64,000 nt of DNA from Xenococcaceae cyanobacterium MO_188.B32. Lineage in GTDB: Bacteria; Cyanobacteriota; Cyanobacteriia; Cyanobacteriales; Xenococcaceae. A model generated the notes under the pieces. It saw only the letters and a list, made by a program, of their open reading frames with translations, was not told the origin of the DNA and ran no database searches. Each line of letters starts with the position of its first letter. Position 1 is the first letter of the stretch. Of this stretch, positions 2,855 to 62,613 are shown in pieces. The translations under genes were made by a program, and so were the position numbers. The stretch lies in the NCBI GenBank assembly GCA_030065635.1, contig JASJDJ010000008.1, forward strand, positions 1 through 64,000, in the 5' to 3' direction.

Positions 2855-3059
2855 ACATTGCTTTCTCTCCTATTTGATAAGCAATTATATCATTTATTAT
2901 GTTACATCCGTCTAGTAAAAAAGAAAAGTAATTATTCTAAAAATTTTAACTATTCCCTTCTTACGAAGTTTGCTCGACGGGACGGGGCGTATAAACTGCC
3001 GAGGAGACCTCAGCTATACCGCCCCTCGGAAACCCCCGCAACGCGCCATTCTTTATGCC

Positions 3060-4184: not shown

Positions 4185-4300
4185 GAATTATTTAGAGTTT
4201 TTTATAGTAAAGATTCACCTATCAGTTTCTCAGCAATCTTAACTGATAGGTATTTTGGTGACGAATTTGATATAAAGGTATTCAGCTACGAAATAATTTT

Positions 4301-6364: not shown

Positions 6365-6532
6365 ATATTCTAGATTTAAAGAGAATATTAGGTGTAGATC
6401 GACCTAAATACGAGAAAAATGTAAATTTTTGTAAATAAAAGCATAATTTTGACAATTTATTCCTGAGTTACACAAAGAGGATTTATCTAAATTTATCGTC
6501 CATGACTTGGGAATATATTGTCTTTGTAGCGC

Positions 6533-7087: not shown

Positions 7088-7170
7088 AGTACGTCTGATG
7101 TGAATTAGCCTTATTCTGATGTTTGGGTTTTTAGCTTTTAGCTATCGGCTATTAGCCCTTTCAGCAAGTC

Positions 7171-7854: not shown

Positions 7855-7863
7855 AGTTTGTTA

Positions 7864-7926
7864 TTAGTTGTTAGTTGTTAGTTGTTAGTTGTTAGTTGTT
7901 AGTTATTAGTTATTAGTTGTTAGTTA
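7864..7926. repeat. Heptamer tandem repeat (TTAGTTG)n
   Basis: About nine tandem copies of a 7-bp unit, TTAGTTG, with TTAGTTA variants, fill the start of the spacer between the two rhomboid genes. Such short tandemly repeated repetitive heptamers are well known in cyanobacterial genomes. Confidence 0.9.
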
Positions 7927-7965
7927 TCATAAGTAGGTATAGTTAAATCTATCTTTCCTCCTCTG

Positions 7966-8026
7966 CTCCCCTGCACCTGAAGCCCCTCTGCACCTGAAGT
8001 TCCCCTGCACCTGAAGCTCCCCTGCT
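7966..8026. repeat. Short tandem repeat around CCCCTGCACCTGAAG
   Basis: Three imperfect direct copies of a unit of about 17 bp containing CTGCACCTGAAG, plus a partial fourth, lie between the heptamer tract and the end of the upstream rhomboid gene. Confidence 0.75.
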
Positions 8027-8045
8027 ACCTTCTAATATTTTAAGT

Positions 8046-8732
8046 TTAATTATTCTTGCCTGGTGAGTTGCGATCGCGAAATAATCCTAACATTGGAGCG
8101 AGAATTGCTCCAAAGATAAAACCGCCAGCGTGCGCCCAGTAAGCAGCCCCACTAGTAGTTTCTGGCAAGCCAAGAGCAGCAACACCTTTAAAAGCTTGAT
8201 AGAAAAACCAAAAACCCAAGAAGAAAAACGCAGGCATTTTTTCAGTGACAAAAGGAAAGATAATAATCTTAGACTGAGGATATTTAATTAAATAAGCTCC
8301 CATTATTCCTGCGATCGCGCCACTAGCACCAACTGTAGGTATCGTCGAGTCCATAGCAAAAAACCAATGAGTGAGGGCAGCTAAAACACCACAGCCGAGA
8401 TAAAAAACTAAAAACTTAATGTGACCTAAAGATTCTTCAACATTATCACCAAAAATCCACAAAAATAGCATATTACCACTAATATGTATTAGTCCACCGT
8501 GGAGAAATTGTGAGGTAATAAGAGTATAAATCTCTGGTATCACTCGATTAGGGGGATTTCCTGCCAAACTAGCCGTTAATTGTTGCGGAATCAAAGCAAA
8601 TACATCAAACAGAGAACTCGATTTTGCGCCTAAAGATAACTCATGGAAAAACAGAACAATGTTAATCGTTATCAGGGTATAGACAATGACAGGAGTGGTC
8701 TGGGTTGGATTATTATCCTTAAAAGGAACCAT
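8046..8732 (-). CDS. Rhomboid-family intramembrane serine protease (copy 2)
   Basis: A 228-residue paralogue of the gene at 7171-7854. It retains HGGLIHISGNMLFLW, GASGAIAGIMGAY with the nucleophilic Ser, and the His of YWAHAGGFIFGAILA, so it should be proteolytically active. Its C-terminus adds RNSPGKNN. The two copies differ mainly in the loop after TM1 and in the region between the Ser and His helices, where this copy is shorter. The start ATG lies 67 bp from the divergent livH-type ATG at 8800, so the two genes share a short bidirectional promoter region. Confidence 0.9.
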   Translation of the reverse strand: MVPFKDNNPTQTTPVIVYTLITINIVLFFHELSLGAKSSSLFDVFALIPQQLTASLAGNPPNRVIPEIYTLITSQFLHGGLIHISGNMLFLWIFGDNVEESLGHIKFLVFYLGCGVLAALTHWFFAMDSTIPTVGASGAIAGIMGAYLIKYPQSKIIIFPFVTEKMPAFFFLGFWFFYQAFKGVAALGLPETTSGAAYWAHAGGFIFGAILAPMLGLFRDRNSPGKNN

Positions 8733-33072: not shown

Positions 33073-33117
33073 ATTCATTATTTTTTTGTGGAAAAAATGG
33101 TACCTTCCGTACCTACG

Positions 33118-33182
33118 AACTCCGAACTCACGTCGTTGAACAAATGATAACTCCGAACTCCGAACTCCGAACTCCGAACTCC
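33118..33182. repeat. Heptamer repeat (GAACTCC)n spanning the start of a gene
   Basis: One unit (GAACTCCGAACTC) lies at about 33118. Five tandem units of ACTCCGA lie at about 33148-33182, immediately after the ATG at 33144, so they are translated as TPNSELRTPNS at the N-terminus of the second MCP. Confidence 0.85.
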
Positions 33183-36002
33183 CATTATGCTGTCGAGCGA
33201 GTGCAACCAACAGCAAAATCTAAGCAAGTTGGTCTACAAACTAAACTGCTATCGGTTGTTTTGCCGACAATTATTGGAACTTTAGTCTTATCGAGTTTGC
33301 CTGGCTATTACCTAATTCATAAAACTGCCAAAGAAGAAGTCGAACAGCAATTAGAAAATAAAGCTATTTTAGCTAAAGACACGATCGAGCAATTATTAGA
33401 CCAAGCCATCAAAATTCCGCAAGTAGTTGCCAGTAATCCTCGAATTGTTAGTTCAATTCGCACCAGTCGCCAAAAGGTGCAAAATTCTGGTCTAGATAAG
33501 TTATCTATTCCCGAATTAGAGCAAAAGTTTGCTGCTACTAAGTTACTTGCACTCGATCGAGAACTTAACGATTATCTGAGAAAAGTAGTTCTAGTCACGG
33601 AACTAAGAGAGATATTCTATACAGATAGTTATGGCTTAAATATTGCTTACAGTAACCCTACGTCAGATTTTGTCCAGAGAGATGAAGACTGGTGGCAAAA
33701 AGGAAAAAGTCAAACCCAATGGCTGAGTCCACCTAAGTTTGATGCGTCGGCCGATAATGTTGGTTTGGAATTAGTTCAAGCAATTAAAGACCCTAACTCA
33801 GGAGAGTTTTTAGGAGTTATCAAGGCATTGCTACCTGAAAACTATTTTGATGCTGTAGCGAATAATTTATTAAACACGGGGATTAAAAACACCCAGATAG
33901 TGCAAATTATATCTCCCGAACTCGAGAATGCGATTAAAACTATTACCCCCGAAGGATTGAGTCCAGATCGAGAAATTATTGGTGGCATCGAGCTAGCTCG
34001 TATTGCCTCTTTAGTCCTACAAGAACAAAAAAAAGAACTTGCCGAACAGTTAAGACAAGAGTTTTCTGTCAAAAAATTAAAAATTAAAAATGCTGATTCT
34101 ACTCGGCAAATTATTGTTTCCTTTGTCTATAAAAAGAGACTCTATAAACTACTTGCTATTAAAGAGAGAAATTGGGTGGCAGTAGCTTCGATAAATTACC
34201 AAGAGTTACAGAACTCTGGTAATGAATTAACTCCAATTATTATTCTGAATTTGATTTTAGTTAGTTGTGTAGTAGCAGTTATCATCTCTTTATTATCTCG
34301 TCAAATTTCCCAGCCGTTAGTCAACTTAGCTGCTACAGCAGAACAGGCAGCAGCAGGTAATTTGGATGTACGAGCTAAATCTTTAGGAACTTTTGAAGTA
34401 CAAACTTTAGCTAATAGTTTAAATAATCTTATCGTTCGAGTTAGAGAACTATTAAATCAAGAACGTATCGAAGCAGAAAAGGCAAAAAATCTACAAAGAA
34501 TTATCCAAAAAATTAACGAAGGAGGAGAAAAACAAGGGATATTAGCGACAGTAGTTAAAGAAGTTAGACAGACATTGCCAGCAGACCGAGTCATTTATTA
34601 TCAATTCGATCGAAATTGGCAGGGAACTGTTACTGCTGAATCAGTGCTTTCTGCTTATCCATCGGCTTTAGGAGCAGAAATTAACGATCCATGTTTTGCT
34701 CGAGTATATATCCAAAAATACGAACGAGGTCGAATTGCGGCGATCGATAATTTAGCTCAAGCAAACCTAACCGACTGTTATCGTCAACAACTAGAATCTT
34801 GTGCCGTCAAAGCGAATTTAGTCTTACCAGTAATAATTCAAAACAAACTCGATGGTTTACTAATTGTTCATCAATGTTCTGCTCCTCGTCATTGGGAAAC
34901 TAGTGAAATTGATTGGTTAACTCAAATCGCCAATCAAATCAGTTTCGCTCTCGATCGATTGAGCTTTTTAGAACAGTTAAAAGTAACGGAAGAAAGAGAA
35001 AAAAAAGCTAGAGAATATCTACAACAACGAGCCTTACAATTATTGATGGAAGTAGACCCCGTAAGTCGTGGAGATTTAACCATCCGCGCTCGGGTTCAAG
35101 AAGACGAAATTGGCACAATCGCTGATTCTTATAACGCTACGATCGAAAATCTGCACAAAATTGTTAACCAGGTAAAAGCAGTATCTCAGGAAGTACAAGC
35201 AAATACTAGTGAAAATGAACGAGTTATTAGCAATTTAGCCCGAGAAGCAGTCAAACAGGCAGAAGAAATTTCTTTAAGTATGGTTCAAATTCAAAAAATG
35301 AGTGAATCAATTAAAGCTATCTCTGCTAATGCGGGTCTAGCAGAATCGATCGTACAGAATGCTAACCAAAATATTGCTGTCGGTGATGAAGCAATGAACC
35401 GAACAGTAGCAGAAATTAATGCCATTCAAACAAGTGTAAATGAAGCTGCTCAAAAAGTTAAACAATTAGGAGAATCATCTCAAGCTATTTCTCAAGCCGT
35501 AAATTTAATCGGTCGTTTTGCTGCTCAAACTCATTTACTCGCTCTCAAAGCATCTATTGAAGCAGCCAGAGCAGGAGAACAGGGAAAAGGCTTCGCTGTC
35601 ATCGCCGACGAAGTACGTTCTTTAGCTGCGAGATCGGCAGAAGCAACCGCAGAAATTGACAATTTGGTTACCCGAATTCAATTAGAAACTAATGAGGTAG
35701 TGGAAGCCATGAATACAGGAACTAAACAAGTAGAAGTGGGTACCCAACTAGTTCGACAAACTCGACAAAGTTTAACCGAAGTAACTGCTGCCAGTCATGA
35801 AATCAGTCAACTAGTAAAAGAAATTGCCCAAGCTGCGGTCGCTCAAGCAGAAACTTCAGGACTGGTAAGTGAAACCATAGCAAATGTAGCAATCATAGCC
35901 GAAGCCAATTCTCGCTCGGCAACAAAAGTATCGACTTCGATCGAGGAGCTATATCAAACTGCTGAGAAATTACAAGTAGGCATCGGACAATTTAAAACCT
36001 AG
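33144..36002 (+). CDS. Second methyl-accepting chemotaxis protein with cyanobacteriochrome-like GAF
   Basis: 952 residues with the same plan as its neighbour: TM1 (LLSVVLPTIIGTLVLSSLPG, about 35-54), a periplasmic sensor with WWQKGKSQTQWLS typical of dCache domains, TM2 (LTPIIILNLILVSCVVAVII, about 362-381), HAMP, GAF, HAMP-like, and an MCP hairpin with HLLALKASIEAARAGEQGKG. The GAF has DPCF (Cys517) and DCYRQQLES (Cys545), again 28 apart. The first ~13 residues are encoded by heptamer repeats, so the true start might lie downstream (a GTG at about 33198). In the hairpin tip, Asn is replaced by His and Lys (QTHLLALKAS), a departure from the highly conserved [10 protein letters not shown]. Confidence 0.88.
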   Translation: MITPNSELRTPNSHYAVERVQPTAKSKQVGLQTKLLSVVLPTIIGTLVLSSLPGYYLIHKTAKEEVEQQLENKAILAKDTIEQLLDQAIKIPQVVASNPRIVSSIRTSRQKVQNSGLDKLSIPELEQKFAATKLLALDRELNDYLRKVVLVTELREIFYTDSYGLNIAYSNPTSDFVQRDEDWWQKGKSQTQWLSPPKFDASADNVGLELVQAIKDPNSGEFLGVIKALLPENYFDAVANNLLNTGIKNTQIVQIISPELENAIKTITPEGLSPDREIIGGIELARIASLVLQEQKKELAEQLRQEFSVKKLKIKNADSTRQIIVSFVYKKRLYKLLAIKERNWVAVASINYQELQNSGNELTPIIILNLILVSCVVAVIISLLSRQISQPLVNLAATAEQAAAGNLDVRAKSLGTFEVQTLANSLNNLIVRVRELLNQERIEAEKAKNLQRIIQKINEGGEKQGILATVVKEVRQTLPADRVIYYQFDRNWQGTVTAESVLSAYPSALGAEINDPCFARVYIQKYERGRIAAIDNLAQANLTDCYRQQLESCAVKANLVLPVIIQNKLDGLLIVHQCSAPRHWETSEIDWLTQIANQISFALDRLSFLEQLKVTEEREKKAREYLQQRALQLLMEVDPVSRGDLTIRARVQEDEIGTIADSYNATIENLHKIVNQVKAVSQEVQANTSENERVISNLAREAVKQAEEISLSMVQIQKMSESIKAISANAGLAESIVQNANQNIAVGDEAMNRTVAEINAIQTSVNEAAQKVKQLGESSQAISQAVNLIGRFAAQTHLLALKASIEAARAGEQGKGFAVIADEVRSLAARSAEATAEIDNLVTRIQLETNEVVEAMNTGTKQVEVGTQLVRQTRQSLTEVTAASHEISQLVKEIAQAAVAQAETSGLVSETIANVAIIAEANSRSATKVSTSIEELYQTAEKLQVGIGQFKT

Positions 36003-36055
36003 CGGTTAGTTTGGAGTTATTCACCCCTTACTTATTACTTAATTCCCAACCAACC

Positions 36056-39000
36056 ATGTCTCTTAACCCTGATATTCGCGATCGAGCCTATCAGTTTTTT
36101 ATTGAAGAAGCTCGAGAACTTCTCCAAACCCTGGAAACTGGTTTACTGAATCTTAGTGAAGATCGCAGTACCGATCGAGTTCATGAGTTAATGAGGGCTG
36201 CTCATTCTCTTAAAGGAGGAGCAGCAAGTGTCGATCTAGATGCCATTAAAACTCTAGCTCATCGCTTAGAAGATTTCTTTCAAGCCCTTTATAGCGACAA
36301 GGTTGAATTTGACTCAGAATTAGAAAGCTTGTTACTGGAAGCTTATGACTGTCTTCGTTCTCCTCTTAACGAACAAATAGAGACTGGAGCTTTTGATACT
36401 CAATCTGCTTTAGTTAATGCCGAACCTATATTTACTCAAATAGAAGAATTATTAGGAGATGCTCTTAAAGAAGCCGATAACTACGTCCCTATTTCTGCCG
36501 ATTTAGGTATTGATATTGTTGCTTCTATCTTTGAAGTAGATGTCGCTCAATCCCTCGAGCGTTTGACTACAATACTGGCTGACTCTAATAGAGAAGAAGT
36601 CATTAGAGAAATAAAAGCTCAAGCAAAAGTATTTACTGAATTTGCTGAGTTATTTAATTTGCCTGGTTTTGGCGAAATTGCTCGAGCTGCCATAATTGCG
36701 CTCGACAACCATCCAGAGAAAGCTGTAGAAATAGGTAATCTCATGTTGGCAGATTGTCAAGTAGCTAGAGACTCGGTTTTAGAAGGCGAGCGACTGCGTG
36801 GAGGAGAACCTTCTGAGGCTTTATTAGCTCTCTCTAAGTCTGAAGAATCAGTGGGTTCTGAAGAAACAGAATCTCAGGAGATTGTCTCTTTAGAAAGTGT
36901 CTTTGGAGACGAGCTAGAAATTTCTTCAGAAGAAGAGCAGACACCTGTTAGCGATGAGCCAACACCAGAAATCATTTCTCTAGATAGTGTTTTTGGGGAT
37001 GATTTAAACACCATAACAGGAGAAGAGCAGACACCTGTTAGCGATGAGCTAACACCAGACATTATTTCTCTAGATAGTGTTTTTGGGGATGATTTAAACA
37101 CTATAACAGAGCAGACACCTGTTAGCGATGAGCCAACACCAGAAATCATTTCTCTAGATAGTGTTTTTGGGGATGAGCTAAAAATTCCAGTTAAACTTTC
37201 AGTTTCTCATAATCATTCTGAGTCAAAAGAATCTCTAGAAATCGATGGGCAAGGACTACCTCAACCCAATAATTTAGATGAAGCGATCCAATCTATCGAG
37301 CAAATCTTCGATAAGTTACCTCCTCTACAAAGCAGTCTCTTACCTCCATCTCCATCAAAACCAAAAGAAGAAGTAACTATAACCCCAAAAGATAAAGTTA
37401 AATTAGATCGGCATGAAGACAACAAAATAACTAATTTAACCGTAAGAATTGACTTAAATCATCTAGAGAGAATGAATAATATCATTGGCGAATTAGTCAT
37501 TAACCGTAACAGCCTATCTCTGCAAAATGAACAACTTCAGCAGAATGTCAAAGAACTAGTCCGCAAGTTTGCCCGTTTTCACAAAATAACAGTCCAATTA
37601 AGAGAGTTTGCCGATCGTCTGTCGATCGAGTCAGAAAAACCTCAAAGTAATCATTTCTCTTCTACCAAAAACCATTTTTCGGCAATCAATACCAGTCAAA
37701 CCGAGTTTGATTCTTTAGAAATGGATCGCTACAGTCAGTTGCACATTTTACTACAAAAAATATTAGAGGAAATGATGCAACTAGAAGAAGGAATGGAAGA
37801 TATTTCTTTGTTTGCCAGACAATCTGACTTAACTATTAAGCAACAACGTCAGATGCTCGGACAAATGCGGGATGAGCTAATGTGGGCAAGGATGTTACCT
37901 TTAGACCAAATTCTGCAACGTTTTCCGCGCATATTGCGTAATTTATCTAACAAGTATCAAAAACCTGTTACTTTAAAGACGATCGGGACAGGAGTACTGG
38001 TTGACAGAGCAGTATTAGAAAAGCTGTACGATCCTCTGATGCATTTACTACGTAATGCTTTCGATCATGGAATTGAACCACCTGAATTTCGCCGTCAACA
38101 AGGTAAATCAGCCAAAGGAAATATTACCATTAGTGCTTATTATCAAGGCAATCAAACTGTTATCGAAGTGCAGGATGATGGTCGAGGACTTAATTTAACT
38201 AAAATTGCCAGTAAAGCAATTAAACAAGGTTTGTTGTCAGTCGAACAAGCCCAAATAGCGACTAAAGAAGAATTATTAGACTTAATTTTTGAGGCAGGAT
38301 TTTCTACCGCAGATAAAGTTAGTGAATTATCTGGGCGTGGTGTAGGCATGAATGTAGTTCGTTCTCAATTACAATTGCTCAAAGGCACGATTAAAGTTGA
38401 TTCATCTCCTGGAGAGGGAACTACTTTTACTCTTAAATTACCTCTTACTCTAACTATTGCCAAACTACTAGTCTGTTCTTTGGGTTCAACGGCTTTTGCT
38501 TTACCGTCAGATAGTATCGAAGAAATCATTATTCCTAAATCAGACCAAATACAATTATCTGGTCCACAGAGGTTTTTATTCTGGAATCAGCAATTAATAC
38601 CTATTTATGCAGTTAAAGATTTGCTTAAGTATAACTGCACTATTTATTCAGCAGGTTTGCAGAGTAAAACTTTTGATACGGTTGCCTCCCCTGTAGATTG
38701 GGCATCACCTTTGCTATTGTTACGGATAGGACAACAATTATTTGCCCTAGAAATTGACAAACTGATTACCGAACAAGAATTAGTTATTAAACCTTTTGGT
38801 AAGGCAATTACTCCTCCTAGCTACACTTATGGCTGCACTATTTTAGGAGATGGAACTTTACTTCCCGCGATCGATGGAGTTGTACTAATTAATAAAGTCC
38901 TGGGATTAAATACAATTCAGGAGCAAAATAATTTAAATTCTATCGATCGATTAGAACTAGCCGATGACCTTGAGTTAGATACACAAGACAAGAATATTGA

Positions 39001-39817
39001 AATAGTTCTCGCCAAAACCCTCAACCAGCCCACAATACTAGTAGTTGATGACTCTACTGCCCTTAGAAGAACTATGGCTTTAAGTCTAGAAAAACAAGGC
39101 TATCGTGTATTGCAAGCAGGTGATGGGCGACAAGCTTTAGATCGACTCAAGAATCATTCTGGTATCGATTTAATTATCTGTGATATAGAAATGCCCAATA
39201 TGAATGGCTTTGAATTTCTCAGTGTTCGCCGTCGTGATTCTTTGTTACTTCAAATTCCTGTCATTATGCTTACCTCTCGGAGTGGAGGAAAACACCGTAG
39301 TTTAGCCAAACAGTTGGGAGCCAATGCCTACTTTACTAAACCCTACATCGAACAAGAGTTTCTGGGCGAACTCAAAACAATACTCTCACAAAAACATAGT
39401 GACTCTGAAGATCGATCTAAATCTACACCCAAAACAATAACTAATTTAAACATATTAATTATTGATGATTCCTCTGCTTTACGCAGGACTATGACTCTGA
39501 GTTTAGAAAAAAAAGGCTACCGAGTATTACAAGCCAGACATGGAAAAGAGGGATTAGAACAATTAAAACAAAATCCGCAAGTAAATCTTATTATTTGTGA
39601 TATAGAAATGCCGATTATGAATGGCTTTGAATTTCTTGATGTTCATCGCCAAGATGCCAAAATAGCTCATATCCCTGTAGCGATGCTTTCTTCTCGTAGC
39701 AGTGAAAAACACCGCAATTTAGCCAAACAGTTGGGAGCAATTGCCTTTTTTACCAAACCCTACATAGAAGAAGAGTTTTTACAAGAAATTAAAAATTTAA
39801 TTAAAACTCATCATTAA
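36056..39817 (+). CDS. Hybrid CheA-type histidine kinase with two receiver domains (PixL/PilL type)
   Basis: 1253 residues from ATG 36056; the TTG at 36011 is rejected for lack of similarity. An N-terminal Hpt domain with the phosphorylatable His50 (LMRAAHSLKGGAASVD) is followed by an acidic linker with tandem repeats (about 275-380), a dimerisation segment and an HATPase with LLRNAFDHGIEPPEF, VQDDGRGLNL and SGRGVGMNVVRSQL. A CheW-like domain comes next, then two tandem receivers, each with ILxxDDS and ICDIEMPxMNGFEFL. Most PixL/PilL proteins have one receiver; here it is duplicated. CheA would phosphorylate the CheY-like regulator. It is the fifth gene of the operon, 53 bp after the second MCP. 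Confidence 0.93.
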   Translation: MSLNPDIRDRAYQFFIEEARELLQTLETGLLNLSEDRSTDRVHELMRAAHSLKGGAASVDLDAIKTLAHRLEDFFQALYSDKVEFDSELESLLLEAYDCLRSPLNEQIETGAFDTQSALVNAEPIFTQIEELLGDALKEADNYVPISADLGIDIVASIFEVDVAQSLERLTTILADSNREEVIREIKAQAKVFTEFAELFNLPGFGEIARAAIIALDNHPEKAVEIGNLMLADCQVARDSVLEGERLRGGEPSEALLALSKSEESVGSEETESQEIVSLESVFGDELEISSEEEQTPVSDEPTPEIISLDSVFGDDLNTITGEEQTPVSDELTPDIISLDSVFGDDLNTITEQTPVSDEPTPEIISLDSVFGDELKIPVKLSVSHNHSESKESLEIDGQGLPQPNNLDEAIQSIEQIFDKLPPLQSSLLPPSPSKPKEEVTITPKDKVKLDRHEDNKITNLTVRIDLNHLERMNNIIGELVINRNSLSLQNEQLQQNVKELVRKFARFHKITVQLREFADRLSIESEKPQSNHFSSTKNHFSAINTSQTEFDSLEMDRYSQLHILLQKILEEMMQLEEGMEDISLFARQSDLTIKQQRQMLGQMRDELMWARMLPLDQILQRFPRILRNLSNKYQKPVTLKTIGTGVLVDRAVLEKLYDPLMHLLRNAFDHGIEPPEFRRQQGKSAKGNITISAYYQGNQTVIEVQDDGRGLNLTKIASKAIKQGLLSVEQAQIATKEELLDLIFEAGFSTADKVSELSGRGVGMNVVRSQLQLLKGTIKVDSSPGEGTTFTLKLPLTLTIAKLLVCSLGSTAFALPSDSIEEIIIPKSDQIQLSGPQRFLFWNQQLIPIYAVKDLLKYNCTIYSAGLQSKTFDTVASPVDWASPLLLLRIGQQLFALEIDKLITEQELVIKPFGKAITPPSYTYGCTILGDGTLLPAIDGVVLINKVLGLNTIQEQNNLNSIDRLELADDLELDTQDKNIEIVLAKTLNQPTILVVDDSTALRRTMALSLEKQGYRVLQAGDGRQALDRLKNHSGIDLIICDIEMPNMNGFEFLSVRRRDSLLLQIPVIMLTSRSGGKHRSLAKQLGANAYFTKPYIEQEFLGELKTILSQKHSDSEDRSKSTPKTITNLNILIIDDSSALRRTMTLSLEKKGYRVLQARHGKEGLEQLKQNPQVNLIICDIEMPIMNGFEFLDVHRQDAKIAHIPVAMLSSRSSEKHRNLAKQLGAIAFFTKPYIEEEFLQEIKNLIKTHH
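36880..37190. repeat. In-frame tandem repeats of 84-90 bp in the CheA linker
   Basis: Four copies of the peptide IISLDSVFGD(D/E)L, separated by EEQTPVSDEPTPE segments, are encoded by near-identical DNA units of about 84-90 bp. The first copy (IVSLESVFGDELEI) is the most divergent. Near-identity at synonymous sites indicates recent expansion. Confidence 0.88.
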
Positions 39818-53988: not shown

Positions 53989-56148
53989 ATGTTTTATCTT
54001 AATAAAATCGAGCGAGCTAACCCTAGCTCAGATAGCCCAATTTTGGGTCGTACCTTGCCTTCATTATTAGATGAGGCAGTCGATCGCTCCCCTAATCATA
54101 CTGCTTTCAATCAGTGGACAGAACAAGGCTGGAAGTCTATATCTAACCAAGAATTTCTGACGGCTGCTGAAGAGTTGGCGTTAGGATTACTAGAACAAAA
54201 CTTAGATAGGGGCGAACACGTAGCTTTCTTAATGCACAGTGATGTCAATTTTTGCCTGGCAGACATGGGTTGTCTGCTAGCTGGACTGATTGACGTACCG
54301 ATCGATCTAACTCAAACTCTAGAAAATATCGTTTTTATTCTGCGACACTCAGAAGCCAAAGCCTTAATTGTTGCCGATCTCGATTTACTCGCTCAAGTAG
54401 TACCCTACCTATGGGATACTCCAAATTTGCAGACTATTATTGTTGCTGATGTTCCCCATAATTGGGAGCAAAAAAGAACACAACTACTAACCTGCGATCG
54501 AGATTCGGCTATAACCAAACAGGAAGTCGAGTCCACTAAGATGTCAGCAGAAGCCTGTTTATGTATTCCCATGTTGCTCTGTCAGGGACGAGAAGACCGA
54601 ACCTGCCCTGAATTGCCCCAATGTATTCAATTATTATCGCTTGAGGAAATTCGAGCCCAAGGAAAGGAGCTATGGTGTGAGGCTCAACGTCAGCAATTGC
54701 GATCGACCATTGAGCCTCAAAATTTAGCGACCATTATTTATATTGCGGGAGAAACAGGAAAACCCAAAGGGGTCATGTTAACTCATGAAAATATTTCTGC
54801 CGATATTTTAACTACTTTTAAAACTATTCCTGACCTTAAGCCAGGAGTAAAAGAAACCATACTTTCTTTTTTACCTCTAACTCATATTTTTGCACGGGCG
54901 TTAATTTACGGTCATATCAATTACGGACACGATCTGTACTTCACTACTCCCAATCGGGCAGTCAAGGATTTTCAACAAGTTCGGCCGACCATTGTTGCCA
55001 CTGTCCCCAGATTACTGGAAAAGGTCTATCACAAAATTCTCGACCGCGGTGGCAAACTGAAAAGCTGGAAACGGATTATCTTTAATTGGGCGTTAAAGCT
55101 AGCTCAAAGTTACCAACTGGGTAAATCACCGGGACTATTGGACGCTTTCGGGCTAAAACTAGCAGATAAGCTTGTATTTTCTCAATGGAGAAAACCTTTT
55201 GGTGGCAGACTAAAATATTTCATTAGTGGTGGTGCAGCCTTAAAAGCCGAGCTTGCTAATATTTTGAGTGCAGCAGGTATGACCGTACTCCAAGGTTATG
55301 GTTTAACCGAGACTAGTTCGGTGATCTGTTGTAACCGAGATGGCTTAAATCGTGCCGGGACAGTTGGATTACCCATTGCTGGAGTAGAAATAGCGATCGC
55401 TAAAGATGGAGAAATTTTGGTTAAAGCTCCTTACGTGATGCAGGGCTACTATAAAAACCCAGAAGCCACTCAGTCAGTTATCGATGAGGAAGGCTGGCTA
55501 CATACAGGAGACTTGGGAGAATTTACTCCCGAAGGTTTTCTCACTATTACCGGCAGTAAAAAAGACTTATTTAAGCTTTCTACTGGCAAGTACGTTACCC
55601 CCGAACCTTTAGAGAGTCATGTCAAACAATCTCCCCTCGTCAGACAGGCAGTGACAGTGGGATTGCAAAGAAAGTTCTGTGGAATGCTCATTTTTCCCGA
55701 TCTAGATAAACTGTACGAGCGTGCCATGACTATGGGTTGGCATTTAACCACAGCAGATTTACTCAAACAACCCGAAATTGTTGCTCTCTATCAAGATTTA
55801 ATTGATGATGCTAATAAACAGTTACCTAGTTGGTCAAAAGTAAAGCGATTTCAGTTAGTTGATGGCAATCTCACTCCAGAAAATGGGCTACTGGATTCTA
55901 ACCTCAAAGTTAAAAGAGCCAAAGTTAATGAGGTATTTGCTGCGGAAATAGATTCTCTTTATGGAGAGACAGAATTACAACGAGTTGTATCTCCAAGCAT
56001 TGTCACTAAAACTTTCATCAGGTCATTCACCAGGAAAATTACCATCAAAGTCAAGCGGTCATGGCGATCGCTCAAAAACTATCTTACCCTTCCCTCCTTC
56101 GAGGGGTGGAAACTACAAAAAACACCTAATTCTGAAGAATTGGAATAA
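53989..56148 (+). CDS. Long-chain fatty acyl-CoA synthetase (AMP-forming)
   Basis: 719 residues from ATG 53989. The adenylate-forming fold has the P-loop-like motif IYIAGETGKPKGVMLTHENI (about 245-264; the usual TSGTTG is varied to IAGETG). It also has LPLTHIFARA, GYGLTETSSVICC (about 442-454), EEGWLHTGDLGEF (about 503-515) and GSKKDLFKLSTGKYVTPEPL (the hinge and C-terminal domain). It activates fatty acids to acyl-CoA, although relation to cyanobacterial acyl-ACP synthetases is possible. Its position before a FadN-like gene, a thiolase and a FadE-like gene makes the CoA-forming role in beta-oxidation the best reading. Confidence 0.85.
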   Translation: MFYLNKIERANPSSDSPILGRTLPSLLDEAVDRSPNHTAFNQWTEQGWKSISNQEFLTAAEELALGLLEQNLDRGEHVAFLMHSDVNFCLADMGCLLAGLIDVPIDLTQTLENIVFILRHSEAKALIVADLDLLAQVVPYLWDTPNLQTIIVADVPHNWEQKRTQLLTCDRDSAITKQEVESTKMSAEACLCIPMLLCQGREDRTCPELPQCIQLLSLEEIRAQGKELWCEAQRQQLRSTIEPQNLATIIYIAGETGKPKGVMLTHENISADILTTFKTIPDLKPGVKETILSFLPLTHIFARALIYGHINYGHDLYFTTPNRAVKDFQQVRPTIVATVPRLLEKVYHKILDRGGKLKSWKRIIFNWALKLAQSYQLGKSPGLLDAFGLKLADKLVFSQWRKPFGGRLKYFISGGAALKAELANILSAAGMTVLQGYGLTETSSVICCNRDGLNRAGTVGLPIAGVEIAIAKDGEILVKAPYVMQGYYKNPEATQSVIDEEGWLHTGDLGEFTPEGFLTITGSKKDLFKLSTGKYVTPEPLESHVKQSPLVRQAVTVGLQRKFCGMLIFPDLDKLYERAMTMGWHLTTADLLKQPEIVALYQDLIDDANKQLPSWSKVKRFQLVDGNLTPENGLLDSNLKVKRAKVNEVFAAEIDSLYGETELQRVVSPSIVTKTFIRSFTRKITIKVKRSWRSLKNYLTLPSFEGWKLQKTPNSEELE

Positions 56149-56230
56149 AGGAGAAAAGCTCCTAGCTAATAGCTATTAGCTAATCAATTGCTGACAGCCC
56201 TTAAAGATAACAAAATCAGGTTGAAAAATT

Positions 56231-58603
56231 ATGTTTAAACCATTCCGAACTGCTGCCGTTTTAGGTGCAGGAGTCATGGGTTCTCAAATTGCAGCCCACC
56301 TAGCCAATGCCGGCTTAACAGTTCATCTATTGGATATACCTGCTCCAGAAGGAAACAAAAATGCGATTGTAGAAGGAGCTTGGAAAAAAGCTCTCAAACT
56401 CAAACCCCCGATCTTATTTACGGAAAAAACAGCCCGTCGCATTACTCTGGGTAATTTTGACGAACATCTCGATCGCCTGGCTAATGTCGATTGGGTAATT
56501 GAAGCAGTCGTGGAAAATTTAGCCATTAAACAGCAGTTAATGGCACGATTGGAAGGCGTTATCGGTAAAGATACGATTATCTCCACTAACACTAGTGGCT
56601 TACCCGTACGAGAAATTGCTCGCGGATTGCCATCATCGTTTACTCATCGCTTTCTCGGTACTCATTTCTTCAATCCACCCCGCTATCTTAAATTACTAGA
56701 ACTGATTCCCACCGAAGACACTGACCCTCAAGTACTAGTTCGACTGGAGTGGTTCGGTCGCCTGCATCTAGGCAAAGGAGTAGTAGTTGCCAAAGATACT
56801 CCTAACTTTATCGCCAATCGCATTGGTATGTATGCAACCATGCTGGGGATTAAAGGCTTTACTGAAGAAGGATACACTATTGAAGAAATCGATACCCTCA
56901 CTGGTACTCTAGTGGGCAGACCAAAATCGGGAACTTTTCGTACAGCCGATCTAGTAGGACTAGATACCCTAGCTTATGTCACTAAAAATCTCTATCCTGC
57001 TATTCCCCATGATGAAAGCCGTGAAGTTTTTCGGATACCACCATTACTAGAGAAATTGGTAGCAACAGGAACTTTAGGGGCAAAAACAGGTCAGGGATTT
57101 TATAAAAAAGAGCGCGGTCAAATTCTCTCTTTAAACCCCAAAACCTTTGCTTACGAACCAGCCAAGCCTTTAGATTTAGGGGATATTAAATCGATGCAAA
57201 AGCTGGAATTACCAGAAAGGTTACGCGCCCTGTATCGAGATTCTGGTCGAGCGGGAGCATTTTTCCGCAAGATGATCTTATCTATACTCAGTTACAGTTC
57301 TTATCGCATTCCCGAAATTACCGATAGTCCCGTAGAAATCGATCGCGCCATGCGCTGGGGATTTGGTTGGGAACTAGGGCCTTTTGAAATTTGGGATGCC
57401 TTGGGTTTTAAAACTGTAATTACCGATATGCAAACAGCAGATATCCCCTTAGCCGACTGGGTAACTACGATGGTAAAACATCATCAGGTTGGTGGATTTT
57501 ATCAACGAGAACGAGAAAAACACGGGGACAAAGAAGAAATCAAAGTTTATGTTCCCAGTCAAGGATATGTTGTTTTGAGAACTCCTCAAGATGAAATCGA
57601 CCTCGATGTAATTAAAGCCGAACCAGAGCGTATTCTGTGGCAAAACGAAGAAGCAGCTTTACTCGATCTAGGAGATGGAGTAGTTCTGTATGAGTTTCGC
57701 TCTAAAGGCAATACTCTCAGCTTTAAAGTCATGAATGGGCTGACAGAAGTATTAGATATCTTAGAAACCAGCAATTATCGAGGCATGGTTATTGGTAACA
57801 GTAATGTCAATTTCTGTGGTGGTGTTCATCTTGCAGAAGTCGGTAAGCTGGCCCAATCTGGTCAATTAGAGGCGATTGACGCTCTTGTGGTTCAGTTTCA
57901 AACAACTCTCCAAAGAATTCACTACTTCCCCAAACCAATTGTTGCTGCTGTCAGAGGATTAGCTCTCGGTGGTGGTTGTGAATTAGTCATGGCTTGTCCT
58001 CAAGTAGTAGCATCGGCAGAAAGCTATATTGGCTTAGTAGAACTGAGCGTGGGCTTAATTCCTGGGGCTGGTGGCATTATGCGCATGGCAGCCTGGGCAG
58101 CAGAACGAGCAGCCAACGAAATCGCACCTCAGATTCAACCATTCTTACAAAAAGTCTTTGAAACTATTGGGATGGCGAAAGTTGCTAATAGTGCTCACGA
58201 AGCCCAAGAAATTGGTTTTATTCAACCTACAGCCAAAATTGTCATGAATAGCGATCGACGTTTATATGTGGCGAAACAAGAGGTTCTACGTCTCGCTCTC
58301 GAAGGTTACGCACTCATACCCGAACGTAATTCTATTATGGTGTTAGGTCGTCCAGCCAGAGCAGCATTAGAAAATGGAGCTTATGTTTTCCAACAAGGCG
58401 GATACATTTCTGAATACGACCGCTTCCTTGCCAATCGTTTGGCTTATGTTTTAACTGGTGGGGAATTGTCTGCACCTTCTTTAGTTAGCGAAGACTATCT
58501 ACTACAACTAGAACGAGAATCCTTTGTTCCCTTACTCAAAGAACAGAAAACCCAAGAGAGGATCGCTCATTTGCTTAAGACTAAAAAACCCTTGCGTAAT
58601 TAA
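56231..58603 (+). CDS. fadN: 3-hydroxyacyl-CoA dehydrogenase/enoyl-CoA hydratase fusion (FadN type)
   Basis: A 790-residue protein with the dehydrogenase first: FRTAAVLGAGVMGSQIAAHL (GxGxxG, about 4-23), STNTSGLPVREIA, THFFNPPRYLKLLELIP, the NAD domain, and the C-terminal HAD domain with DTPNFIANRIGMY. A crotonase domain follows (about 490-700) with GGGCELVMACPQVV and YIGLVELSVGLIPGAGG holding the two catalytic Glu. This domain order and the length are those of Bacillus FadN, not of E. coli FadB/FadJ. It hydrates trans-2-enoyl-CoA and oxidises the resulting 3-hydroxyacyl-CoA. It is the second gene of the four-gene cluster. Confidence 0.92.
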   Translation: MFKPFRTAAVLGAGVMGSQIAAHLANAGLTVHLLDIPAPEGNKNAIVEGAWKKALKLKPPILFTEKTARRITLGNFDEHLDRLANVDWVIEAVVENLAIKQQLMARLEGVIGKDTIISTNTSGLPVREIARGLPSSFTHRFLGTHFFNPPRYLKLLELIPTEDTDPQVLVRLEWFGRLHLGKGVVVAKDTPNFIANRIGMYATMLGIKGFTEEGYTIEEIDTLTGTLVGRPKSGTFRTADLVGLDTLAYVTKNLYPAIPHDESREVFRIPPLLEKLVATGTLGAKTGQGFYKKERGQILSLNPKTFAYEPAKPLDLGDIKSMQKLELPERLRALYRDSGRAGAFFRKMILSILSYSSYRIPEITDSPVEIDRAMRWGFGWELGPFEIWDALGFKTVITDMQTADIPLADWVTTMVKHHQVGGFYQREREKHGDKEEIKVYVPSQGYVVLRTPQDEIDLDVIKAEPERILWQNEEAALLDLGDGVVLYEFRSKGNTLSFKVMNGLTEVLDILETSNYRGMVIGNSNVNFCGGVHLAEVGKLAQSGQLEAIDALVVQFQTTLQRIHYFPKPIVAAVRGLALGGGCELVMACPQVVASAESYIGLVELSVGLIPGAGGIMRMAAWAAERAANEIAPQIQPFLQKVFETIGMAKVANSAHEAQEIGFIQPTAKIVMNSDRRLYVAKQEVLRLALEGYALIPERNSIMVLGRPARAALENGAYVFQQGGYISEYDRFLANRLAYVLTGGELSAPSLVSEDYLLQLERESFVPLLKEQKTQERIAHLLKTKKPLRN

Positions 58604-58607
58604 TAGC

Positions 58608-58631
58608 AGGGGCGTTTCGCGAAACGCCCCT
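58608..58631. repeat. Perfect 24-bp palindrome between fadN and fadA
   Basis: AGGGGCGTTTCG followed by CGAAACGCCCCT, 12-bp arms with no loop, starting 5 bp after the fadN stop. GC-rich hairpins of this kind are scattered in cyanobacterial genomes. No T-run follows, so it is not a standard terminator. It may modulate read-through or mRNA stability. Confidence 0.8.
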
Positions 58632-58679
58632 ACAGCGAACGTCCCTAATTTTATAAGATTTTTGATTAATTATTTAACC

Positions 58680-59870
58680 ATGAATAAAATGAACGAAGCA
58701 TATATAGTCAGCAGTGTGAGAACTGCTATCGGTAAAGCACCACGGGGAACTTTGCGTAATGTCCGCCCCGATGACCTCGGTGCCACTGCAATTAAAGGCG
58801 CGATCGAGCGAGTGCCGGGACTAGCCCCCGAACAGATCGATGATGTGATTATGGGCTGCGCCTTTCCTGAAGGAGAACAGGGATTCAACTTAGGACGCAT
58901 TGCTGCTCGTCGGGCGGGGTTGCCTTATTCTGTACCTGGCTGCACCGTCAACCGTTTTTGTGCGTCGGGATTGCAAACTATTGCCATGGCATCCCAAGCG
59001 ATTATGACAGGACAAGCAGAGGTTATTGTCGCTGGTGGGGCAGAATCGATGAGTTTGATGCCTATGGGGGGTAATTATCTCTCTCCCAATCCAGATTTGC
59101 TAGAACAATCTCCCAATACCTATATCACTATGGGGATTACGGCAGAGAATGTAGTACATAGGTTCGACATCTCCCGACAAGAACAAGACCAGTTTGCCCT
59201 GCGATCGCATCAACACGCCTTAGACGCGATTAGATCTGGTCGCTTTAAAGCCGAAATTGTTCCTGTTACTTTTAAAGAAACAGTTTACGACCATGGCAAA
59301 ACCCAAACAATCGAGCGGGTATTTGAAGTAGACGAAGGTCCCCGTCCCGATACTAGTTTAGAAGCCTTGGCTAAATTAAAACCAGTTTTTAGACTCAACG
59401 GTACAGTAACTGCTGGTAACTCCTCCCAAATGTCCGATGGGGCAGCAGCAGCAGTGGTGATGAGCAGAAGAATGGTTAACGAACTGAGAGTACAACCCAT
59501 GGGGCGACTACTAGGCTATGCTGTCGCTGGCGTACCCCCAGAAATCATGGGCATCGGCCCCGTAGAAGCTGTCCCTAAAGTACTCAAACAAGTCGGTTTA
59601 ACATTAGACGATATTGGTTTAATCGAACTAAATGAGGCCTTTGCAGGACAATCTCTTGCCGTCATTCACAAACTAGGACTGAACGAGGAGATTCTTAACG
59701 TCAACGGTGGCGCGATCGCTCTAGGACATCCTCTCGGTTGTACGGGTGCAAAACTGACTGCTACCTTACTCCATGAAATGCAACGGCGTAGTATTCGGTA
59801 CGGAATGGTAACCATGTGCATTGGTGGCGGAATGGGTGCTGCGGGAGTGTTTGAAAACTTGATGTTATGA
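58680..59870 (+). CDS. fadA: Acetyl-CoA acyltransferase (thiolase, FadA type)
   Basis: A 396-residue thiolase. The ATG at 58680 gives [20 protein letters not shown], the usual N-terminus, and the second ATG, 9 bp on, is also possible. The nucleophilic Cys lies in [15 protein letters not shown] (about residue 95). [30 protein letters not shown] (His) and [14 protein letters not shown] (second Cys) complete the active site. It cleaves 3-ketoacyl-CoA to acetyl-CoA plus a shortened acyl-CoA. Its place between FadN-like and FadE-like genes argues for the degradative rather than the polyhydroxybutyrate role. Confidence 0.92.
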
Positions 59871-60051
59871 GTTCGGAGTTCGGAGTTATTTAACAATTAA
59901 CTCTCCCTTGCCCCTCCACCGATTAATGACGAACTCCAACCAATAAATCCCTCTCTGCGCTCTCTGCGTCCTCTGCGGTTTATTATTTCCAAAATTTGCT
60001 TCTTACCAATTACTAATCAAGATCATTTGCCACACAAATTTAAAAATCTTT
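59871..60051. repeat. Spacer made of heptamer and GC-rich simple repeats
   Basis: GAGTTCG units (59870-59888), a single GAACTCC (about 59930) and a CTCTGCG-based run (about 59951-59979) occupy most of the 181 bp between fadA and the FadE-like gene. Confidence 0.75.
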
Positions 60052-62613
60052 ATGAACATTTCTTTTCCCACAATCATTATTCCTAGTCTCATCTTGCTGT
60101 TCGTTATTTTAGGTTATATTGGTGTTCCCCTTTGGACATGGTCGCTATACATCGCAGCAATTTTAGGAGTTTGCCAAGCACCAATTTGGCTATGGAGTAT
60201 CTTTGGTATTCTGGCGTTAGTTGTTAATGTTCCTCAATTGCGTCAGCTAATAGTTACAGCCCCAATTGTTAAAGCCATCAAAACTCTCAAACTCTTACCC
60301 AAAATTTCCGCTACCGAAAGGGAAGCGATCGAAGCTGGTAATGTCTGGGTAGATGGCGAATTCTTTTCTGGCAAACCCAATTTCCAACGTCTTCTCAGCG
60401 AACCCTACCCATTAATACCTAAGACTCAATTTCAGCTAGATAAAAAGGACAGTCTGTCAGACACGGGGACACAGAGACGCGGAGACACGGAGAAATATAA
60501 CAACTCCGAACTCCGAACTCCGAATTCCGAACTAGAACAAATTCGTTCTTTTCTCGATAATCAGGTTAAAACAGTTTGCCAAATGGCGACTGACTGGGAA
60601 ATTCACTCGCGTAAAGATTTACCTCCTCAAGTTTGGGACTATCTCAGACAAGAGCGTTTCTTTGGCATGATGATTCCCAAGGAATATGGGGGTTTGGGAT
60701 TTTCTAACTTAGCTTATAGTACGGTGATGACTAAGTTGGCTTCTCGTTCTTTTACTCACACTGCTACTGTGGGTGTAACTAACTCTTTAGGGCCAGCTAA
60801 ATTACTCCTGCGTTACGGCACACAAGCACAGAAAGATTATTATCTACCACGACTGGCAAGAGGAGAAGAAATTCCTTGTTTTGCTTTAACCGAACCAAAT
60901 GCTGGTTCTGATGCAGCTAGTATTGTCTCTAACGGGGTGGTATTTCGGGGTGAAGATGGCCAGTTATATCTACGTTTGAACTGGAAAAAACGTTACATTA
61001 CCCTAGCAACCATCGCGACTTTAATGGGACTGGCTTTCAGACTGCGCGATCCAGATAATTTATTAGGTAAAGGAGAAGATGTTGGTATTACCTGTGCCTT
61101 AATTTCTACTAACACTCCTGGGGTAATTATCGATCGCCGACACGACCCCATGGGCGTACCTTTCTTTAATTCACCCACAGAAGGACATGATGTAGTTATT
61201 TCTGTAGACCAAATTATTGGTGGTGTGGAACAAGCGGGACGAGGTTGGAAAATGCTGATGCAGTCTCTAGCTGCGGGACGAGGAATTAGTTTTCCTGCCA
61301 CTTGTACGGGCATTGCCAAATTAGTAACTAGAGTTACGGGGGCATATAGTAAGGTAAGAAGACAGTTTGGGCTGAATATCGGTCGTTTTGAAGGGATTGA
61401 AGAACCTCTGGCTCGGATTGGTGGATTAACTTACTTGATGGAAGCTGCCAGACTCTATACAGTTGGGGCAGTAGATCGAGGGGAACAACCTGCGGTAATT
61501 TCGGCGATCGCTAAATACAACTTTACCGAACTTTCCCGTCAGATTATTAACGATGGGATGGATATTATGGGCGGTGCAGGAATTTGTCGGGGGCCTAGAA
61601 ACTTACTCGCTAATATTTATACGGCTATACCCATTCCTATTACCGTCGAAGGGGCGAATATTCTCACTCGTACCATGATTATCTTCGGACAGGGAGCAAT
61701 TCGTTCTCATCCTTATGTGTATCAAGAAATAGAAGCTTTAAATAAATCCGATGTTAAAGCATTCGATGGCGTTTTTTGGCATCATCTCGGCTCGATAGTA
61801 AGCAACTTTTTCCGCGCTACTTTATTAAATTTAACTCGCGGTTATCTAGCTAGTTCCTCTGGATCTGAAACTAATGCTAAATATTACCGTAAGTTAGCTT
61901 GGGCATCGGCTACTTTTGCTTGGCTTACCGACTTATCCCTAATCTATTTTGGGGGAACTCTCAAGCGACAAGAAAAACTGACAGGACGATTTGCCGATAT
62001 TCTTTCTTGGATGTATTTAGGGACTGCTACTTTACGTAGATTTGAAGCCGAAGGACAAAAAGCAGAAGACCTTCCTTTAGTGAATTGGTCGATGCAATAT
62101 ACGTTTGCTCAAATTCAGCAAGGATTTGTAGGTATCTTGAGTAATATGCCGATACCACTATTAAAAGTTGTGGCAGTTTGGTGGCGACTCAACCCCATTG
62201 GTACAATGCCATCAGATCGATTGGGTAGTGAAATTGCTAGAATAATGCAAACTCCAGGAACACAAAGGGATAATTTAACGGCTGATATTCATATTCCTAG
62301 CAATACCGAAGAAGCTTTAGGAAGGTTAGAACAAGCATTTAGGTTATCAGTTGAAGCAGAATCTATCCTCAAGAAAATTAAGACTGCCAGTAGTGCAGGT
62401 AAGTTACCTAAAGAAAGACCAGAAAAATTAATTCGTAATGCTTTAGAAGCCAAAATTATCAGCCTTGATGAAGTTGAGTTAGTGACTCAAGCTGAATCTG
62501 TTCGCAATGATACTATCGAGGTAGATTCATTTACTCTGGAAGAATATCAAACAGGGCAAAAAACAACTTCTACTGAAATTAGGTCAGGGTTTCAGCTTAT
62601 CCCAAACTCTTAG
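60052..62613 (+). CDS. fadE: Acyl-CoA dehydrogenase, FadE type, with inserted repeat peptide
   Basis: An 853-residue protein. Hydrophobic N-terminal segments (IIIPSLILLFVILGYIGVPL and the following) resemble the membrane-proximal start of E. coli FadE. The dehydrogenase core follows, with QERFFGMMIPKEYGGLGFSN, CFALTEPNAGSDAAS (FAD/substrate contact), SLAAGRGISFPA, and PITVEGANILTRTMIIFGQG, the conserved VEGANILTR. It oxidises acyl-CoA to trans-2-enoyl-CoA. Residues about 137-161 are encoded by two simple DNA repeats and look like an invaded linker. It is the last gene of the four-gene beta-oxidation cluster. Confidence 0.9.
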   Translation: MNISFPTIIIPSLILLFVILGYIGVPLWTWSLYIAAILGVCQAPIWLWSIFGILALVVNVPQLRQLIVTAPIVKAIKTLKLLPKISATEREAIEAGNVWVDGEFFSGKPNFQRLLSEPYPLIPKTQFQLDKKDSLSDTGTQRRGDTEKYNNSELRTPNSELEQIRSFLDNQVKTVCQMATDWEIHSRKDLPPQVWDYLRQERFFGMMIPKEYGGLGFSNLAYSTVMTKLASRSFTHTATVGVTNSLGPAKLLLRYGTQAQKDYYLPRLARGEEIPCFALTEPNAGSDAASIVSNGVVFRGEDGQLYLRLNWKKRYITLATIATLMGLAFRLRDPDNLLGKGEDVGITCALISTNTPGVIIDRRHDPMGVPFFNSPTEGHDVVISVDQIIGGVEQAGRGWKMLMQSLAAGRGISFPATCTGIAKLVTRVTGAYSKVRRQFGLNIGRFEGIEEPLARIGGLTYLMEAARLYTVGAVDRGEQPAVISAIAKYNFTELSRQIINDGMDIMGGAGICRGPRNLLANIYTAIPIPITVEGANILTRTMIIFGQGAIRSHPYVYQEIEALNKSDVKAFDGVFWHHLGSIVSNFFRATLLNLTRGYLASSSGSETNAKYYRKLAWASATFAWLTDLSLIYFGGTLKRQEKLTGRFADILSWMYLGTATLRRFEAEGQKAEDLPLVNWSMQYTFAQIQQGFVGILSNMPIPLLKVVAVWWRLNPIGTMPSDRLGSEIARIMQTPGTQRDNLTADIHIPSNTEEALGRLEQAFRLSVEAESILKKIKTASSAGKLPKERPEKLIRNALEAKIISLDEVELVTQAESVRNDTIEVDSFTLEEYQTGQKTTSTEIRSGFQLIPNS
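60461..60535. repeat. Simple repeats translated inside the FadE-like gene
   Basis: GACACGG/GGAGACA-type units (60461-60493) are followed by GAACTCC heptamers (about 60501-60535). Both stay in frame, encoding SDTGTQRRGDTEKY and NNSELRTPNSELE. The second half is almost the same peptide as the N-terminus of the second MCP (TPNSELRTPNS). Confidence 0.88.

Follow-up and report, generated by a model that had tools for sequence, protein, structure and literature searches.

Can a cyanobacterium degrade fatty acids by beta-oxidation and, if so, by which route would acyl chains enter the pathway and electrons leave it? A passage of a 2020 review states, on the basis of bioinformatics, that cyanobacteria possess no complete beta-oxidation pathway (PMC7181335), and a sequence-only reading of the DNA described here had rendered the prevailing view in the same way. 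The locus that raises the question lies in a 64,000-nucleotide stretch, referred to below as the window, of Xenococcaceae cyanobacterium MO_188.B32 (assembly GCA_030065635.1, contig JASJDJ010000008.1, positions 1 to 64,000). As that reading had recognized, it comprises four consecutive open reading frames (ORFs) on the plus strand, which match the AMP-binding, 3HCDH plus ECH, thiolase and FadE-type families and are here designated the ACS (acyl-CoA-synthetase-like), FadN, thiolase and FadE genes (Table 1). The interpretation that we hold with moderate confidence is that they represent a conserved cyanobacterial module for the degradation of acyl lipids, in which FadE would pass electrons to plastoquinone without an electron transfer flavoprotein (ETF) and the ACS-like protein would not perform ordinary ATP-dependent adenylation.

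The assignment of the surrounding genome to the cyanobacteria is borne out by the density of HIP1 palindromes in the window (30 observed versus 0.41 expected), by the quality of the assembly (6.39 Mb and 281 contigs, 97.2% complete and 1.5% contaminated) and by the position of the window FadE inside the Pleurocapsales group of a cyanobacterial FadE clade. Contamination or misbinning was rejected on the grounds of the HIP1 density, this FadE placement and the recurrence of the cluster at 26 named loci of cyanobacteria. That a true cyanobacterium carries linked beta-oxidation genes, contrary to the stated consensus, is thus upheld.

A scan for FadE loci, with one genome retained per species, returned 53 loci, of which 34 are cyanobacterial and 19 belong to Bdellovibrionota, Alphaproteobacteria, a planctomycete and one unplaced proteobacterium. 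The four-gene linkage, a search for which had been proposed by the sequence-only reading, was found to be general: the order ACS-FadN-thiolase-FadE on one strand is present in 26 of the 34 named cyanobacterial loci, while the remaining eight, cut by a contig end, start inside or immediately ahead of the genes that are left. This arrangement was not seen in the 19 non-cyanobacterial loci, several of which are short; one of these (L037) has matches to FadN and thiolase, both weak, on the opposite strand. Within a sample of 388 genomes of the class, in which FadE was called by PF09317 and FadN by E<=1e-60, FadE was detected in 75 genomes, FadN in 73 and both in 71, with FadE lacking a FadN counterpart in four (G351, G506, G520 and G551) and FadN lacking FadE in two (G458 and G547). 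FadN and FadE occupy one contig and strand in 62 of the 71 genomes, separated by 2645-4201 bases (FadN end to ACDH_C domain), and different contigs in nine; their linkage is far beyond chance. FadE was found in 9 of the 292 genomes of a wider phylum sample. The earlier claim, made for this one strain, was therefore too narrow, as the module occurs in about a fifth of the sampled class genomes.

A phylogenetic tree, likewise proposed by the earlier reading, was obtained for FadE. Its 21 cyanobacterial members form a single clade (support 100/100), within which Pleurocapsales, Nostocales and Leptolyngbya-type subgroups are distinguished, the window FadE being placed with those of Xenococcaceae/Pleurocapsales. 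A recent transfer of the window copy is consequently not supported, although in Acaryochloris sp. 'Moss Beach' the whole cluster, plus a lipase-like gene, is borne on a plasmid (L145, NZ_CP071719.1). Since ACS (annotated as two CDS) and FadN each span two frames on this plasmid, the copy may be broken or mis-assembled; it is annotated in the public record, where the thiolase carries a beta-oxidation term. The cluster is an old, conserved cyanobacterial module and not a peculiarity of one strain.

The enzymes of the spiral itself possess the features expected of them. FadN combines 3HCDH and crotonase domains and contains the HAD His/Glu and crotonase Glu motifs, in keeping with a bifunctional hydratase/dehydrogenase; its best NCBIfam model, Staph_FadB (NF052272), scores 648 bits, below the cut-off of 999. 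The thiolase exceeds the cut-off of its family model (TIGR01930, 479 bits versus 240.55) and contains the Cys/His motifs; for both proteins we assume the motif residues to play the roles customarily assigned to them. The models that fit the thiolase best are PRK07661 (568 bits, cut-off 633) and PRK09052 (561 bits, cut-off 567), followed by those of FadA (379-407 bits), BktB (366-402) and PhaA (287), and it falls short of the FadA equivalog cut-offs of TIGR02445 (379 versus 591) and PRK07661. A thiolase acting solely in polyhydroxybutyrate metabolism is not favoured by the difference between the PhaA and PRK07661 scores, yet the BktB and FadA models score alike.

FadE contains the ACDH_C domain (PF09317, 317 bits) and three Acyl-CoA_dh domains, and matches PRK09463 with 1018 bits (cut-off 600), while it remains below the FadE_coli exception model NF038187 (865 bits versus 1300). 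By these scores it is assigned to the same subfamily as E. coli FadE, outside the E. coli exception family, and is predicted to be of the fatty-acid type. Glu533, which we take to be the catalytic glutamate, is Glu in 41 of 41 aligned FadE sequences, in a region where the structural model is of low confidence. A hydrophobic N-terminal segment (19-mer mean of at least 1.97) is shared by all 31 cyanobacterial FadE frames that cover the N-terminus and by an E. coli FadE, and the model (pLDDT 83.5) exhibits helices at residues 6-78. The structural comparison, for which only Foldseek-ranked chains were aligned, is led, among the matches listed, by 3owa (Z 33.5), followed by VLCAD/ACAD9 structures (Z 29.7-31.6); the alignments start at approximately residue 97 and barely cover the N-terminal helices.

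To which partner might such a FadE deliver its electrons? The sequence-only reading had suggested a search for ETF or another acceptor. No ETF match (PF01012) was obtained in the genome under study, in any of the 76 FadE carriers of the class, or in the 31 named cyanobacterial FadE genomes (which may overlap with the 76, and from which L012 was excluded), and ETF-quinone oxidoreductase (ETF-QO, PF05187) was likewise not found in the 76 carriers, own genome included. An ETF-linked acyl-CoA dehydrogenase system is, on this evidence, not indicated. The same ETF search returned matches in 10 of 14 control genomes. In family f30, which belongs to another class of the phylum, ETF is present in four of four FadE carriers (G001, G007, G016 and G029) and ETF-QO in all three examined for it; those FadEs of this family that were included in the tree, three in number, cluster with E. 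coli FadE, apart from the cyanobacterial clade. Outside the cyanobacteria, five of six FadE carriers possess ETF. The sixth, a 1.4-Mb alphaproteobacterial metagenome-assembled genome (L044), encodes an E. coli-type FadE and returned no ETF match, and may represent a second ETF-free case.

Because neither ETF nor ETF-QO was found, the predicted membrane-anchored FadE must pass its electrons elsewhere, and plastoquinone is perhaps their direct acceptor. For E. coli FadE, passages in PMC11495604 and PMC9329746 report that no ETF partner has been identified and name direct quinone reduction as a possibility. The sole other Acyl-CoA_dh_1 match in the genome lies on contig 248 (L133), where positions 2674-8694 encode two AMP ligases of FAAL-like appearance and, after them, an acyl-CoA-dehydrogenase-like protein of 604 aa that reaches the contig end. 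This protein was considered as a second beta-oxidation dehydrogenase; owing to its position beside ligases read as FAAL-like, it probably belongs to another, biosynthetic pathway.

The sequence-only reading had furthermore seen active-site motifs in all four proteins and concluded that together they supply every step from fatty acid to acetyl-CoA. The motifs hold for FadN, the thiolase and FadE; in the AMP-binding protein the phosphate loop (P-loop) and the Arg of the A8 motif have been lost. The loop reads YIAGETGKPKG, versus YTSGTTGKPKG in a 645-aa protein on contig 7 of the same genome that we infer to be the acyl-ACP synthetase (Aas), and the A8 motif is ITGSKKD, versus TGRAKD in the Aas candidate. 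Among 33 aligned orthologs (L015 was excluded owing to an in-frame stop), the P-loop Ser is kept in none, the first Thr in two and the fourth-position Thr/Ser in four; the A8 Arg is kept in none and one candidate C-terminal Lys in five (gaps in six). Other positions are maintained, i.e., the Asp of TGD (33/33), the Thr of GYG[LM]TE (33/33; its Glu in 29/33) and a Lys of A8 (33/33). The canonical loop start and the A8 Arg are present in five of five paralogs examined from the same genome and in six of six outside ligases, the latter chosen from 24 non-cyanobacterial matches and encoded on plasmids in other bacteria and in an archaeon. A tblastn search of all fetched loci returned the canonical loop in 0 of 49 cluster-type matches and in 13 of 13 non-cluster matches, where some genomes are counted twice, one match (L012) is misaligned and some of the non-cluster matches represent the same protein. 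In L007 and L152, insertions of approximately 35 residues fall exactly inside the degenerate P-loop. The predicted structure (pLDDT 74) displays the ANL fold, with Z scores of 37-39 to ANL ligases among the matches listed. Thus, the fold and AMP-binding domains of the FadD/ACSL acyl-CoA synthetases are present, while the P-loop Thr-Ser/Gly-Gly-Thr/Ser and the A8 Arg are absent.

This degenerate protein is nevertheless under purifying selection and mostly not decaying. In nine species pairs (NG86), omega was 0.124-0.222 for ACS versus 0.066-0.136 for FadN and 0.062-0.152 for FadE (for the L015 pair, from the first ACS piece only). At a cut-off of E<=1e-70, cluster-type ACS was found in 63 of 281 genomes, 60 with FadE and three without (G331, G341 and G458; 68-82% complete); 89 genomes matched at 1e-60, the additional 26 with only 35-40% identical matches, as Aas would give. 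All 60 FadE carriers seen in this sample possess cluster-type ACS, and 15 further carriers were not among the matches listed. Because the ATP-binding residues have been lost, it is doubtful whether the cluster provides for the entry step, which an unlinked canonical ligase of the genome might perform instead, and the claim that the cluster supplies every step is not supported. Canonical ligases encoded elsewhere in the genome are candidates for the formation of acyl-CoA, foremost a protein of 503 aa on contig 7 (L135), which with 501.7 bits exceeds the cut-off (476) of an NCBIfam long-chain ligase subfamily. A literature search for pseudo-synthetases returned no paper on such proteins.

The relatives of the cluster also point to a possible source of acyl chains. 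When the 34 cyanobacterial loci and the window were compared, only one further neighbour family occurred in more than four of the 35 stretches, namely a 300-aa hydrolase. It is present in 13 stretches, of which ten have it upstream of ACS and three have it downstream of FadE. No other neighbour family (ORFs of at least 80 aa) reaches five of the 35 stretches, and hence none qualifies as a conserved neighbouring candidate for the electron acceptor. The cluster-linked hydrolase matches solved monoacylglycerol lipases (E ~1e-36). It was detected (E<=1e-40) in 60 of the 76 FadE carriers, and in 40 it is at most 4 kb away from FadN or FadE, upstream in 39 (in one of these on the opposite strand) and downstream in one. 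Furthermore, it is fused to ACS in three genomes, each from a different family (the open frames span 1021, 989 and 1008 aa), while in three more proteins from two genera (818, 818 and 838 aa) a second hydrolase region precedes the lipase-like domain; in the two such proteins scanned, this region matches DUF1400 and, weakly, dienelactone hydrolase.

Taken as a pathway, the module would operate as follows. A monoacylglycerol-lipase-like hydrolase, unlinked in this genome and linked or fused in relatives, would free acyl chains, from which a canonical ligase located elsewhere, e.g., the 503-aa protein, would make acyl-CoA. The acyl-CoA would then enter a classical spiral, in which FadE, FadN (as both hydratase and dehydrogenase) and the thiolase would yield acetyl-CoA, NADH and reduced FAD. 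FadE, anchored in the photosynthetic/respiratory membrane, would hand its electrons directly to the plastoquinone pool and thereby feed dark respiration, while the ACS-like protein would more likely bind or channel acyl groups or CoA beside the lipase than adenylate with ATP. The substrates, the membrane insertion of FadE, its quinone acceptor, the role of the ACS-like protein and the physiology are all predictions from sequence. The likely function is the turnover of acyl lipids to acetyl-CoA for respiration. The sequence-only reading had proposed that the strain could use fatty acids as a carbon and energy source, which is not supported as stated: isocitrate lyase returned no match in the genome, and with it the glyoxylate-shunt route to growth is not in evidence. 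Among the 76 carriers it exceeds the cut-off in three, strongly in G334 and with 24-27 bits in two. As the enzyme was not found, a role in energy supply and turnover is more probable than a net gain of carbon; net growth on fatty acids is unlikely for most carriers, and respiration or the re-use of acetyl-CoA from membrane turnover would fit better.

Several observations weigh against parts of this interpretation. ETF is apparently rare in the class, its sole ETF-positive genome in the phylum sample (G177) having no FadE; since ETF seems rare, its absence from the carriers is not a special loss. An unrecognised carrier could replace ETF, and FadE could instead lose its electrons to O2. The genome of the window has no lipase gene beside the cluster, its two copies being unlinked (contigs 180 and 101). 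As regards the ACS-like protein, the selection tests are few, pairwise and simple, and it evolves faster than FadN. It is interrupted in Calothrix rhizosoleniae SC01 (L015, gene 1900-4032, stop at codon 377), where the FadN, thiolase and FadE frames are open, contains a stop in G457 and is split into two CDS on the Acaryochloris plasmid; because of these interruptions, the gene may be dispensable. Expression, activity and localisation of the cluster proteins are predictions, and the P-loop variants might retain some activity.

This last point leads to the alternative put forward by the sequence-only reading, namely that the cluster encodes a conventional, complete beta-oxidation pathway; ACS would then work as an ATP-dependent synthetase whose phosphate loop is atypical yet functional. 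We regard this as doubtful. Such an enzyme would be expected to preserve the ANL fold, the GYG[LM]TE, TGD and A8 Lys residues and its association with FadE under purifying selection, as is observed. It would also have to function without the P-loop Ser and the A8 Arg in any ortholog, with the first Thr in two and the candidate C-terminal Lys in five of 33, and with the long loop insertions of L007 and L152, whereas eleven non-cluster relatives retain the loop start and the Arg. Mutation of the FadD loop Thr reportedly causes loss of activity. At the other extreme, entrance and exit might both be unconventional: the lipase and the P-loop-less synthetase, in some genomes a single polypeptide, together would pass acyl groups of glycerolipids directly to CoA via the lipase acyl-enzyme, with no ATP consumed, and membrane FadE would reduce plastoquinone directly. 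We consider this combination quite improbable; if true, such an ATP-free and ETF-free pathway would allow photosynthetic membranes to be recycled into respiration without the ATP cost of activation.

With respect to the electrons, an unlikely alternative is that FadE is an acyl-CoA oxidase, which transfers them to O2 to yield hydrogen peroxide and needs neither ETF nor a quinone. The failure to find ETF and ETF-QO fits this proposal, and a passage in PMC11495604 reports that E. coli FadE contributes to H2O2 and likens its predicted structure to that of acyl-CoA oxidase. Coupling to the membrane is, on the other hand, suggested by the conserved hydrophobic N-terminus, and dehydrogenases lead the structural matches listed for the window FadE, in a general comparison that included no oxidase-specific test. 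Least credible among these proposals, in our view very improbable, is that the cluster serves chain shortening, reversed beta-oxidation or the supply of polyhydroxyalkanoate precursors. Hydratases, dehydrogenases and thiolases are reversible and are found in pathways of this sort, and the FadA models fit the thiolase no better than those of BktB. A FadE-type dehydrogenase scoring far above its cut-off, a thiolase nearest to PRK07661/PRK09052 and far from PhaA, and the repeated association with a lipase, including fusions and double hydrolases, argue for the degradation of acyl lipids instead.

The module combines traits of several known systems. With the E. coli fad system (FadE/FadBA/FadD) it shares a FadE of the long type, 44% identical to an E. 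coli FadE and likewise equipped with ACDH_C and a hydrophobic N-terminus, and an unclear electron acceptor for FadE according to passages in PMC9329746 and PMC11495604. It differs in that four genes form one cluster, the dehydrogenase domain of FadN comes first, no ETF was found, the ATP loop of the synthetase is lost and isocitrate lyase is missing from 73 of 76 carriers. The fadNAE operon of Bacillus subtilis has the gene order N-A-E, as does the present cluster, and in both this operon and fadXDEBA of Staphylococcus aureus the dehydrogenase of FadN/FadB precedes the hydratase, in line with Staph_FadB being the best model. In contrast to these systems, FadE belongs to the long type of E. coli (it scores 104 bits with the Bacillus FadE model, cut-off 600), no ETF was found, the synthetase is degenerate and relatives possess a lipase partner. 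S. aureus, according to PMC12369327, was thought unable to degrade fatty acids, and represents a close parallel of an overlooked pathway. The ACS-like protein shares the AMP-binding family, the AMP-binding_C_3 domain and approximately 35% identity over the best stretch with the Aas candidate of the same genome, which, unlike the cluster protein, keeps TSGTTGKPKG and TGRAKD. Finally, the linked hydrolase of relatives resembles solved monoacylglycerol lipases, from which it is set apart by its linkage or fusion to an ACS-like protein and, in three proteins, by the second hydrolase domain ahead of it.

Table 1. Features of the cluster and its immediate surroundings (positions in the window).
Feature	Position	Strand	Matches and remarks
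AMP-binding (ANL-fold) acyl-CoA-synthetase-like (ACS) gene	53989 (ATG)-56148	+	PF00501 and PF23562; in-frame TTG at 53983, 6 nt upstream
FadN (hydratase/dehydrogenase)	56231-58603	+	PF02737, PF00725, PF00378
3-ketoacyl-CoA thiolase	58680-59870	+	TIGR01930; first ATG 58680 within longer TTG-started ORF from 58524
FadE, long acyl-CoA dehydrogenase, E. coli subfamily	60052-62613	+	PF09317, PRK09463; predicted N-terminal membrane helices, ACDH_C domain
Ribbon-helix-helix (RHH_1/CopG) protein, 47 aa	53531-53674	-	Pfam RHH_1, 22.8 bits (cut-off 20.5); divergent from cluster
Pair of short tandem repeats (units of 8 and 7 nt), in frame within fadE	60459-60533	+	TRF

Relatives of the ribbon-helix-helix (RHH) protein lie upstream of the ACS gene in L004 (88%), L005 (75%) and the distant Acaryochloris plasmid (71%), and were not detected at E<=1 in the remaining loci searched; it is a candidate local regulator of the cluster. 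The repeat units within fadE are AGACACGG (4.4 copies) and AACTCCG (4.6 copies), and the insert falls within or just after a low-confidence segment of the model (125-155). A further short repeat is located in the gap before fadE (59870-60051). Elsewhere in the window (30178-39817), two GAF-containing methyl-accepting chemotaxis proteins adjoin a CheA-like hybrid kinase, perhaps as part of a phototaxis or chemotaxis operon.

Among the open-access papers listed, none was found whose title or opening abstract lines deal with the cluster. A passage in PMC3750487 mentions the recycling of fatty acids via beta-oxidation in Synechococcus, and the passages on a cyanobacteria-rich plastic biofilm in PMC11583400 do not assign fad transcripts to cyanobacteria. 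Three papers retrieved as FadE papers (PMC5313495, PMC12587747 and PMC12691664) were discarded, 'fade' being part of author names only.

The occurrence of an E. coli-type FadE in carriers in which ETF is not detectable makes the reoxidation of its flavin directly testable. A synthetase without a P-loop that is retained together with a lipase, and in some genomes joined to it in one protein, would be an uncommon participant in fatty acid breakdown. In cyanobacterial biofuel work, the recycling of free fatty acids is ascribed to Aas. For the heterocyst-forming, Pleurocapsales and Leptolyngbya-type lineages, the module changes this picture and the view that beta-oxidation is lacking.

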